In this document: positions 6,334 to 9,923 of the stretch, in pieces
Numbering within the stretch: position 1 is the stretch's first letter
Layout of the letters: every line of letters starts with the position of its first letter
Notes under the pieces: generated by a model
Seen by the model: only the letters and a program-made list of their open reading frames with translations
The model's database searches: none
What the model was told of the DNA's origin: nothing
DNA from: Porticoccaceae bacterium
GTDB taxonomy: Bacteria > Pseudomonadota > Gammaproteobacteria > Pseudomonadales > GM7GCV1
DNA length: 43,788 bases
NCBI GenBank assembly: GCA_018662305.1
Contig: JABJGI010000088.1
Span: forward strand, 1 to 43,788
Direction of reading: 5' to 3'
Program-made: the position numbers and the translations under genes

Positions 6334-7266
6334 ATGAAAAGAAGAGAATTTTTAAAAGGATCAGCTGCAGCCAGCCTCACTCTTGCCGCAGCGCCAGCAT
6401 TGAAAGCACAGCAAGGCAGCCCTCTTATTACCAAAGCCATACCAAGCACCGGCGAACAGATCCCGGTTGTTGGCCTAGGCACCAATGAATTTGGTGATCG
6501 CGGTGGCTATACAAATGCCTCCGCGGAAGATCGACAACCCATACTCGAAGTCCTTAAGGCTTATACCGATCATGGCAATGCGCTAATTGATACGGCTCCT
6601 GCCTACAGCGGCTCGGAAAAAGTATTAGGGGAACTCCTTTCCCAGCTAGGGGCTAAAGATAAGGTGACCTTGGCTACCAAGACCTTTCCACGCCACACAG
6701 GTATGGAGCAGCATGAGCAGACTTTGCTGGAGTCGCATGCCCTTCTCGATATGCCAACTCTGGATATGGTGGGGATACACAACGGTACCAATTGGCAGGA
6801 GCTTCTGCCATTCCTTCGCGAAGCCAAACAGGAAGGAAAAGTACGTTACATCGGCCTGACTTTCTCCAAGACCAACCAGCACGCCGAAATGGCCGAAGTT
6901 ATGCGCAATGAGCCCATGGATTTTGTGCAGGTGAACTACAACATGCTGGACAGGAACGCTGAAAATGAAGTGCTTTCCGTTGCCCTGGACAAAGGGCTCG
7001 CCGTACTTGGCAATATTCCTTATGCCACGGGTGATGTGTTCTCCAGAGTATCAGGGGTAGATCTGCCTGACTTCGCTAAAGAGTTTGACTGCCAAAGCTG
7101 GGGCAATTTCTTCTTGAAATACAACGTTTCGCACCCCGCGATGACGGCCTGCGTACCTGGCACAACTAAAGCCCATCACGCATTGGACAACCTGCAGGCA
7201 GCTATGGGGCGTCTACCAAACGCTTCTGAGCGCAAAATGCAGGAAGATTTCATCGCCTCACTGTAG
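6334..7266 (+). CDS. Aldo/keto reductase with twin-arginine signal
   Basis: A 310-residue aldo/keto reductase. The N-terminus MKRREFLKGSAAASLTLAAA and the ALKA-Q cleavage region form a twin-arginine (Tat) export signal, so the enzyme is probably exported folded. The usual AKR tetrad is present as D86 (LIDTAPAYSGSE), Y91, K116 (LATKTFP) and H149 (VGIHNG), with the barrel strand RYIGLTFS and the QVNYNMLDR block following. It should reduce or oxidise a carbonyl using NADP(H); the substrate is unknown. A nucleotide-dependent enzyme in the periplasm needs its cofactor loaded before export, which Tat transport would allow. It is the last gene of the group beginning at 5324. Confidence 0.88.
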   Translation: MKRREFLKGSAAASLTLAAAPALKAQQGSPLITKAIPSTGEQIPVVGLGTNEFGDRGGYTNASAEDRQPILEVLKAYTDHGNALIDTAPAYSGSEKVLGELLSQLGAKDKVTLATKTFPRHTGMEQHEQTLLESHALLDMPTLDMVGIHNGTNWQELLPFLREAKQEGKVRYIGLTFSKTNQHAEMAEVMRNEPMDFVQVNYNMLDRNAENEVLSVALDKGLAVLGNIPYATGDVFSRVSGVDLPDFAKEFDCQSWGNFFLKYNVSHPAMTACVPGTTKAHHALDNLQAAMGRLPNASERKMQEDFIASL

Positions 7267-7296: not shown

Positions 7297-7313
7297 GTCT
7301 AACTGTCTAATTA
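7297..7313. promoter_or_regulatory. Repeated GTCTAA elements upstream of the cyclase gene
   Basis: Two GTCTAA hexamers occur 8 bases apart (7297-7302 and 7305-7310); the second continues as GTCTAATTA. The same nonamer is present in the cyclase promoter at 7458-7466 and, on the other strand, in the bfd leader at 9907-9915. They look like extra copies of one operator. Confidence 0.4.
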
Positions 7314-7442
7314 GGCTGTAGTTTTATTACATCTCTACAGTTTTTTCACTTTAAGAAATACCTATAAACTTCTGATATATAACATTTTAGTTGCATCCTA
7401 ACTCATTCATTCAGATCACGATTAGACAGTATAAATAAATCC

Positions 7443-7470
7443 TTGCATATTTAGACTGTCTAATTATACT
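7443..7470 (+). promoter_or_regulatory. Likely sigma-70 promoter of the cyclase gene with an operator palindrome in its spacer
   Basis: TTGCAT (7443-7448) and TATACT (7465-7470) form a reasonable -35/-10 pair with a 16-base spacer. A perfect 13-base palindrome, TTAGACTGTCTAA (7451-7463), sits inside the spacer. MerR-family regulators characteristically bind between -35 and -10, and the downstream gene starts with a MerR-like head, so autoregulation is plausible. Related half-sites are at 7422-7427 (TTAGAC) and 7494-7499 (GTCTAA, touching the start codon). Confidence 0.5.
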
Positions 7471-7499: not shown

Positions 7500-9041
7500 A
7501 TGATTAGCAGCAAAGAAGTTATGGAGCGTGCCGGTATCTCACGAGCTACTCTGAATAACTACATTGGTCTGGGAATTCTAAAACGCCCTAATGTTCTTTC
7601 CGCTGTCGAGGGAGAACCTGGTGTTCCCCGTCTCGGCTTTTTCCCTGAATCCGCTCTAACCACTATAGAAAAAGTGAAGCAGCTGAAGTCTGAGGGGAAC
7701 AGCATGTCTGAAATTGCCGACATGCTGTCTAGAGTTGAAGATAGTGAACCGGCGGATTTACTAAACACAGGGAGCACAGAGGCTAAAGCCACTCCCAAGT
7801 CTGCTGAACGACGAGGATTCGAAACAGAAAGCCCAACCAGCCTTTCAGTAGCCCTTTCCGTCGACAACATTCCCGGTCCAGCTTTTATGTTGAACAACAA
7901 CTTTGAGCTTACCTGGTGGAATGAATACGCTGAGGACACCTTCTTTGAACTTGATCGCATAATTGACCGTGATATTGCTGCCCGAAATGTCTTTCACCTT
8001 CTGTTAAATCGCGAACAGGCGCACAAGCTTGTGAACTTCGCGCAGCTATTGGAAGTCACTATGCGCGCTGCAAAGAAGCGCATGGATCAAAAAGCCCTAG
8101 CAAAGGCTTACCCATTGCTTGAAGCCGAAGACGTACAACTTCTTAGCGGCCTATATGAACAGGTTGAAGCGATGGGTGATGAAGATATTATTCATCACAC
8201 TTTTGAAATAAATGACGATGAGGGTAACGAACAAGCTTATACCCTCTACATTTGCTTCTTTAGAGAAGGCGTCTTTTTTAGCTTTTTGCCTGCCGATGAA
8301 GATTCAGCAGCTTTAGTCCAGATGCTTTCCCAGCGCAGCCAGGTTATGCAGGACATTATGAAAAAGAGGCGCCCTTTTCTCACCAACCTGGTCACCATGG
8401 TCGCCGATTTGCAAAGCTCGATGAGTATTTGCTCTGAATTACCCGCTGAGGAGTACTTTGAGCTCATAAATGACATATGGCAGGGCGCTGAACCTATTTT
8501 TAGGCGTTACAAAGCCACTCACGGCAAGCACGTTGGTGACGGCATGGTCTATTACTTCCTGCCGCAGCCAAACAGCGATTACATTACTAATGCCCTATTC
8601 TGTGCCCATGAACTAAAAGAGCTCATGATCAAAATGACCAAGGAGTGGAAAGCCCGCAAAAACTGGGGCCATGACTTAAAATTGAACATTGGCTTGAATG
8701 AGGGACAGGAATGGTTTGGCACCTATCACGCCGGTACTCATATTGAGTTTACCGTGCTGGGTGACACCATTAATCACGCGAGCCGTTTGAGCGACTTTGC
8801 CCGCGAAGGTGGCATCTGGGCAACCAAGGGCATGCTCAGCAAGATTAAGCGGGAGATGCGAGACAGTGTGCGCTATGGCATTCAACGTAAAAATGCTGAG
8901 GGCCTATACATCCTCTCAAAAGACCTATTCGCTCAGGTCGCCAATTTGATCGATCTGGATGAAGGGAAGCACTATAAATTTAAGGATATAGCCGCCCTGC
9001 CCGTTGCTGAGGTCGTGGATGTAATAATTCCGGAAAATTGA
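7500..9041 (+). CDS. MerR-like HTH / PAS-like sensor / class III nucleotidyl cyclase fusion
   Basis: A 513-residue protein with three parts. Residues 1-80 look like a MerR DNA-binding head: SKEVMERAGISRATLNNYIGLGIL (helix-turn-helix), a wing ending in PRLGFFPES, then IEKVKQLKSEGNSMSEIADMLS. Residues about 115-270 resemble a PAS or MmyB-type ligand-binding fold (IPGPAFMLNNNFELTWWNEYAE ... RNVFHLLLN). Residues about 290-475 are a class III cyclase. All key cyclase positions seem present: metal aspartates D303 and D347, substrate lysine K343 (GKHVGDG), D422 (VLGDTIN), N425 and R429. K plus D at the specificity sites favours cAMP over cGMP. No membrane segment is visible, so it is cytoplasmic. 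It is monocistronic and ends at a strong terminator. Whether it really binds DNA is inference. Confidence 0.85.
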   Translation: MISSKEVMERAGISRATLNNYIGLGILKRPNVLSAVEGEPGVPRLGFFPESALTTIEKVKQLKSEGNSMSEIADMLSRVEDSEPADLLNTGSTEAKATPKSAERRGFETESPTSLSVALSVDNIPGPAFMLNNNFELTWWNEYAEDTFFELDRIIDRDIAARNVFHLLLNREQAHKLVNFAQLLEVTMRAAKKRMDQKALAKAYPLLEAEDVQLLSGLYEQVEAMGDEDIIHHTFEINDDEGNEQAYTLYICFFREGVFFSFLPADEDSAALVQMLSQRSQVMQDIMKKRRPFLTNLVTMVADLQSSMSICSELPAEEYFELINDIWQGAEPIFRRYKATHGKHVGDGMVYYFLPQPNSDYITNALFCAHELKELMIKMTKEWKARKNWGHDLKLNIGLNEGQEWFGTYHAGTHIEFTVLGDTINHASRLSDFAREGGIWATKGMLSKIKREMRDSVRYGIQRKNAEGLYILSKDLFAQVANLIDLDEGKHYKFKDIAALPVAEVVDVIIPEN

Positions 9042-9100: not shown

Positions 9101-9574
9101 TTATTCCGTTTCTATTTGTGCTTGCTGGTAGTTTTGGATGCCCACCTTTTCTATTAGGCCAAGCTGAGTTTCCAGCCAATCGATATGCTCTTCTTCTGAT
9201 TCAAGAATATCTGCCAAAAGATCTCGGGAAACATAGTCTTGAACCGTTTCACAGTAAGCAATGCCCTCTCGCAAATCTGGAACAGCCTGATGCTCAAGTT
9301 TTAGGTCGCACTCGAGCATTTCCTGGGTGTTCTCACCAATCAGCAACTTGCCTAGATCCTGAAGATTGGGCAATCCCTCAAGAAAGAGAATACGCTCAAT
9401 CAACATATCGGCGTGCTTCATCTCGTCGATGGACTCTTCGTATTCTTTTTCGGCCAGCTCTTTTAGGCCCCAATCTTTATACATTCTGGAATGCAAAAAA
9501 TACTGATTAATAGCTATCAGCTCGTTGCCGAGAGCTTTGTTGAGAAAAGCAATTACTTTGGGGTCACCCTTCAT
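9101..9574 (-). CDS. bfr: Bacterioferritin
   Basis: Bacterioferritin, 157 residues, oxidises Fe(II) and stores the mineral in a 24-subunit haem-containing shell. The ferroxidase ligands are visible as E18, E51, H54, E94, E127 and H130, and the haem-binding methionine as M52 (DEMKHA). The frame could extend 22 residues upstream, but the start [13 protein letters not shown] matches the family and has a GGAG ribosome site (rc of 9580-9585 region). bfd lies directly upstream on the same strand; Bfd releases the stored iron. A Fur-like box (9670-9688) sits between the two genes, so bfr may also have its own iron-responsive promoter. Confidence 0.96.
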
Positions 9575-9669
9575 GAATACTCCGAAATATAAGACAGAAA
9601 TGATGGGCGGAGTGTGGTGTAGACACTGGAAGCGTGTCAAGTAAATTCTAATTAAAACAAAGAGTTACT

Positions 9670-9909: not shown

Positions 9910-9923
9910 TTAGACTGTCTTAA
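9910..9923. promoter_or_regulatory. Second copy of the TTAGAC dyad, in the bfd leader
   Basis: TTAGACTGTCTTAA shares its first 11 bases with the cyclase-promoter palindrome at 7451 and has one extra T in the right arm. It lies between the likely bfd -10 and the bfd start codon, a position where a bound protein would block transcription. Confidence 0.45.

Follow-up and report, generated by a model that had tools for sequence, protein, structure and literature searches.

A MerR-type head, an MltR-like PAS domain and a class III cyclase domain in one protein, with a conserved palindrome in the promoter of its own gene

A gene in the genome of a Porticoccaceae bacterium (contig JABJGI010000088.1) encodes a single protein in which a MerR-type winged-helix head is followed by an MltR-like PAS domain and a class III cyclase domain. 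A short palindrome in the promoter of this gene tracks the head across phyla and is nearly confined to promoters of the same family. The reading that we favour, and consider fairly probable, is that of a dedicated autorepressor joined to an adenylyl cyclase under ligand control; such a protein would make a second messenger and probably repress its own gene at the same time. Below, the window is the whole stretch of 43,788 nucleotides analysed. The exact open reading frame is 7500-9041 on the plus strand, with an ATG start and 513 amino acids. Its parts are as follows; L031 is a close relative (75% identity) from the same genus.

7500-9041, plus strand: coding sequence, MerR head, MltR-like PAS and class III cyclase (open reading frame, Pfam and fold match; L031 75% identical over the full length)
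7500-7736, plus strand: MerR-type winged-helix head, residues 1-79, with recognition helix ISRATLNNYI (MerR_1; folds of SoxR, CueR and MtaN; near-invariant helix)
7737-7853, plus strand: variable linker, residues 80-118 (37% identity to L031 over residues 79-118; pLDDT below 50)
7854-8309, plus strand: MltR-like PAS ligand-binding domain, residues 119-270 (3pxp, Z 10.1 over 151 residues; MLTR_LBD in 5 members)
8310-8384, plus strand: helical connector to the cyclase, residues 271-295 (model helices 270-277 and 279-288)
8385-8864, plus strand: class III cyclase homology domain, residues 296-455, with Asp303, Asp347, Lys343/Thr418, Asn425 and Arg429 (Pfam, CyaB alignment, 87.5% identity to L031)
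8865-9038, plus strand: C-terminal tail, conserved in the family (family alignment)

An earlier note, made from the sequence alone, had proposed this combination of a DNA-binding head, a sensor-like middle and a cyclase, and Pfam, the family profile matches and the predicted folds confirm all three parts. In the window protein itself, the match to MerR_1 (residues 3-77, E 0.0021, 18.6 bits) is just below the Pfam cut-off of 21.6 and that to MLTR_LBD is weak (E 0.065), so both assignments depend on matches in the family and on the predicted folds. MerR_1 is matched by 19 of the 23 family members at E 0.01 or better (best 2.7e-7), and MLTR_LBD by 5 of the 23 (best E 1.5e-7). Two AlphaFold models show a confidently predicted head (pLDDT about 70-85 outside the wing loop) that runs helix-helix-wing-helix-helix. 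They place a winged helix of the SoxR type at the N-terminus, as expected from the MerR-like head claimed for residues 1-80. In VIA-align, the head of the 1-293 model superimposes on the SoxR-DNA structure (2zhg) with Z 11.3 and 1.6 Å over 69 residues, and CueR, MtaN, TnrA and GlnR give similar fold matches. The recognition helix ISRATLNNYI is nearly invariant and is the best conserved stretch across the family. No LuxR-type HTH profile matched the protein or its family; the head is of the MerR type.

AlphaFold models the middle, with moderate confidence, as two strands and three further strands separated by a long helical insertion. Its best and longest VIA-align match is MltR (3pxp; Z 10.1, rmsd 3.6 Å, 151 residues, from this moderate-confidence model); together with MLTR_LBD in five relatives, this identifies the supposed ligand sensor as an MltR-type PAS fold. 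In MltR (Caur_2278, PDB 3pxp), a PAS-related domain with extra helices holds bound myristic acid (PMC3406030). The predicted ligand of the PAS domain described here is small and probably hydrophobic or fatty-acid-like.

The cyclase domain matches PF00211 (Guanylate_cyc) at residues 299-450 with E 7.6e-9, above the Pfam cut-off, and its best solved relative is CyaB (3r5g, E 3.3e-10). Alignments with CyaB and with the family place D303 and D347 as the metal-binding aspartates and K343/T418 as the base-reading pair, with N425 and R429 in place. The catalytic list of the earlier note thus stands for D303, K343, D347, N425 and R429. Its sixth entry, D422, does not: this is the Asp of a GD motif, T418 aligns as the second base-reading position in CyaB, and L037 has Cys at 422 yet keeps all the other catalytic residues. 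Adenylyl cyclases such as CyaB and CyaC typically have a Lys/Thr base pair, and cAMP is the product predicted from it. The suggestion of a regulator that makes cAMP is supported as a prediction. Between the window protein and L031, the cyclase is the most conserved part (87.5% identical). In the full-length model, built from four sequences in the alignment, the cyclase part has pLDDT largely below 50, and that model was therefore left out of the catalytic geometry. Each of the 15 genomes examined encodes proteins with a cNMP-binding domain; the window's own genome gives five matches.

The family is small. An NCBIfam search with the 513-aa protein returned no family, and in the open literature, which covered few subscription journals, we found no account of a protein, or of a large family, that combines MerR, an MltR-like PAS and a class III cyclase. 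Apart from L031, the full-length relatives are 28-41% identical and come from a second class of Pseudomonadota and from the phylum to which a Deltaproteobacteria MAG belongs (that of CP070689.1, 'Deltaproteobacteria bacterium'). A head-only profile matched in 4 of 398 sampled Pseudomonadota genomes, the window's own included, and in 13 of 297 genomes of the second phylum. Among the genomes sampled, every such match is a member of the cyclase family, and no other protein carries such a head. The genomes of most relatives are often fragmented. Plasmid and phage origins were considered and rejected, the former with no full-length match and the latter with no match.

All six residues D303, K343, D347, T418, N425 and R429 are retained in 12 of the 20 full-length members; since L035/L036, L047/L040 and L060/L041 are closely related, these member counts are not independent events. 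Of the full-length members, six that form one clade are catalytically dead, as is L052 on its own, and the tree implies that the catalytic set was lost at least twice independently. Three more members are reduced further: L057 has the head and the PAS domain with no cyclase in any frame thereafter, and L058 and L059 lack the sensor and combine the head with a decayed cyclase. L038 is without a head. It is nested within headed members in the tree, and its catalytic set is nearly complete, differing only at 418 (Val). In L055, the recognition helix is altered (V16, H19). As a separate observation, tol-like and ruvB genes are found close to the family gene in the genome of the headless member and also in that of the headed family f76 (L097, 8970-10307, minus strand; L095, 1621-3255, plus strand), so that the locus may be inherited in common and the head lost.

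The palindrome shared by the upstream regions of the family is TTAKACWGTMTAA. In the window, the region upstream of the gene contains the following features; for the operators no strand is assigned.

7422-7434: operator 1, TTAGACAGTATAA, 13 of 13 positions to the family motif
7451-7463: operator 2, palindrome TTAGACTGTCTAA, 13 of 13, within a 23 bp block (7448-7470) identical in L031
7464-7476: operator 3, weaker, TTATACTGTCCAT, 11 of 13, overlapping the likely -10
7302-7319: half sites that resemble the operator, ACTGTCTAATTAGGCTGT, shortly after the end of the aldo/keto reductase gene
7443-7470, plus strand: likely promoter TTGCAT (7443-7448)-N16-TATACT (7465-7470), read from the sequence and by analogy with relatives

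The palindrome that had been pointed out at 7451 is real: TTAGACTGTCTAA is the sole perfect TTAGACNGTCTAA in its genome. The 23 bp block TATTTAGACTGTCTAATTATACT, which covers the operator and the -10, is the longest exact run between the window and L031 in an intergenic region that has otherwise diverged. Outside the window's genus, a near match (at least 11 of 13) lies just upstream in 16 of the 20 head-bearing relatives. The form TTAKACWGTMTAA was drawn from the upstreams tested, and two tests are free of this circularity. First, a pattern taken from the window only gave 39 sites, with at least one in 16 of the 21 upstreams outside the window's genus; 500 shuffled patterns averaged 1.2 sites and gave at most 10, and the reversed pattern gave 0. 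Second, an unbiased k-mer count over the same upstreams ranked CTTGACA (the -35 box) and ACTGTCTA / ACTGTATAA at the top.

With zero mismatches, there are 13 sites in 32 genomes, and 10 of them are upstream of a family gene (one about 0.5 kb off). The exact sites elsewhere, in an antiporter-like operon (L072), in a coding region (L077) and near a contig end (L078), look like chance or unread genes. One-mismatch matches are no commoner than those of the reversed control (7 versus 12 in the window's genome, 7 versus 13 in its sister), so nothing stands out beyond the gene's own promoter and a wider regulon was rejected.

Members that have lost or changed a part bear on the link between head and operator. 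The operator is kept in L060, L041, L048, L052, L057, L058 and L059, whose cyclase is dead or missing. None was found upstream of the headless L038, where the G+C-rich upstream would hold few A+T-rich sites anyway, and none at 11 of 13 or better upstream of L055 with its changed recognition helix. The latter upstream shows a different gapped palindrome, ACAGTAAAGAACTACTGT, just after a TTGACA box, possibly a co-evolved operator. No operator was found upstream of L047, L040 and L061, which are headed, have a dead cyclase and form one paralogue lineage; each of them shares its genome with an operator-bearing paralogue. In these pairs (L047/L060, L040/L041 and L061/L048), both copies are cyclase-dead, and one has the operator and the other has lost it.

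In classical MerR activators, the operator lies in a spacer of 19-20 bp and activation is by DNA distortion. The family members with a clear TTGACA promoter have a spacing of mostly 15-17, with three calls at 20, and the operator is mostly over the -10. This is a repressor geometry, from which we infer autorepression as the effect of the predicted binding. In the window, the likely promoter, assigned by analogy as TTGCAT-N16-TATACT, has operator 2 in its spacer and operator 3 on its -10. Its -35 is weak, which leaves room for activation at this promoter, and an automatic promoter call picked another pair.

The computations establish the three domains, the family, the operator, its link to the head and its near confinement to this promoter, whereas binding of the operator by the head itself, repression, the class of ligand and cAMP as the product are predictions. 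A putative mechanism that brings these elements together, in which every function assigned to the protein is a prediction, would be the following. Through its MerR-type head, the protein would bind as a dimer to TTAKACWGTMTAA in its own promoter and block the -10 region, which would repress the gene. A small, probably hydrophobic or fatty-acid-like ligand would bind to the MltR-like PAS domain and alter the dimer. The same dimer would form a class III cyclase, predicted from its Lys/Thr pair to make cAMP, which cellular cNMP-binding proteins would read. Because head, PAS and cyclase are expected to act as one dimer, both outputs might be set by the ligand of the PAS domain. We found no neighbour gene common to all family lineages; given this and the lack of a regulon beyond the own promoter, an effect on the rest of the cell through cAMP is more likely than one through other promoters.

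The head and the cyclase could also be coupled more tightly. MerR-type heads and class III cyclases are both families with an established requirement for a symmetric dimer. Here they are joined through the PAS domain and a helical connector, and the operator is palindromic, so that binding to it might order the dimer and switch the cyclase on or off, with promoter occupancy reported as cAMP. The natural variants make such gating rather improbable: dead-cyclase members keep head and operator and the headless member keeps most catalytic residues, which argues that neither part needs the other, and with one to a few operators per genome only few molecules could be DNA-bound. A bolder version, in which operator occupancy directly sets the protein's own second-messenger synthesis, with a lipid-like ligand and DNA as competing inputs to one cyclase dimer and the own gene repressed, we hold to be unlikely. 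The dead-cyclase relatives with head and operator, and the headless member with a near-complete catalytic set and no operator, indicate instead that head and cyclase are separable and that the head serves autoregulation at a dedicated operator.

The repeated loss of the catalytic set among full-length members, with the head and often the operator kept, would also agree with a cyclase domain that is mainly a nucleotide sensor or a dimerisation module of the repressor, its enzyme activity being vestigial. The whole set in most full-length members and the high conservation of the cyclase between the window and L031 would be hard to explain without catalysis, and make this distinctly improbable. 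That the operator belongs to a separate regulator, with the MerR-like head a protein-interaction or degenerate domain, might fit the MerR_1 score below the cut-off, but is very improbable: the operator goes with the head from phylum to phylum, disappears with it and is found almost only in the family promoter, the lineages share no neighbour gene, and no stretch of the family is better conserved than the recognition helix.

As an autorepressor fused to a ligand-controlled cyclase, the protein would unite features that are known separately, namely cyclase-HTH fusions, MerR heads with many effectors and MltR-type sensors. MerR regulators (SoxR, CueR, MtaN, BmrR, GlnR/TnrA) have the same winged-helix head (Z about 10-11, many solved members DNA-bound), a palindromic promoter operator, which for the present family is sequence evidence only, and a C-terminal sensor. 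Unlike in them, the effector here is a predicted enzyme of second-messenger synthesis, and in the clear cases the operator is over the -10 of normally spaced promoters, not in a long spacer. CyaB of Pseudomonas (3r5g), CyaC (1wc1) and the photoactivated bPAC/OaPAC have a like catalytic domain, with the Lys/Thr pair as in CyaB, and bPAC/OaPAC also have a sensor in front of the cyclase; to our knowledge, none of these carries a DNA-binding head. In MltR / MmyB-like regulators, too, a DNA-binding head is directly followed by a PAS-related ligand domain that contains a helical insertion, but the head of MltR is of the Xre type and it has no cyclase (PMC3406030). The CHD+LuxR cyclase sub-family of actinobacteria, including mycobacterial Rv0386, does pair a class III cyclase with a DNA-binding domain in a single protein; the fold there is LuxR, and the passages of that account consulted here describe no MerR head or MltR-like PAS (PMC3466318).

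A DNA-binding role in cyclase-HTH fusions is hard to test without a target site. The short palindrome described here, located in the promoter of the gene itself and retained together with the head from one phylum to another, supplies a candidate target. With it, whether a single dimer couples DNA binding to ligand sensing and cAMP synthesis can be tested directly. The headless, dead-cyclase and cyclase-less relatives are ready natural controls.

The surroundings of the gene offer some further observations. Directly upstream is an aldo/keto reductase-like gene (6334-7266) with a twin-arginine-like leader, and the gene order aldo/keto reductase, cyclase, bacterioferritin, cysS, glnS is identical in L031. 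A one-mismatch operator, TTAGACTGTCTTA, at 9910-9922, between the bacterioferritin-like gene (9101-9640, minus strand) and cysS, is absent in L031. Elsewhere in the window's genome, two cNMP-binding proteins adjoin each other (G000:C170:10580-11621) and are paired too in the sister genome (G002:C15); they are candidate cAMP readers.
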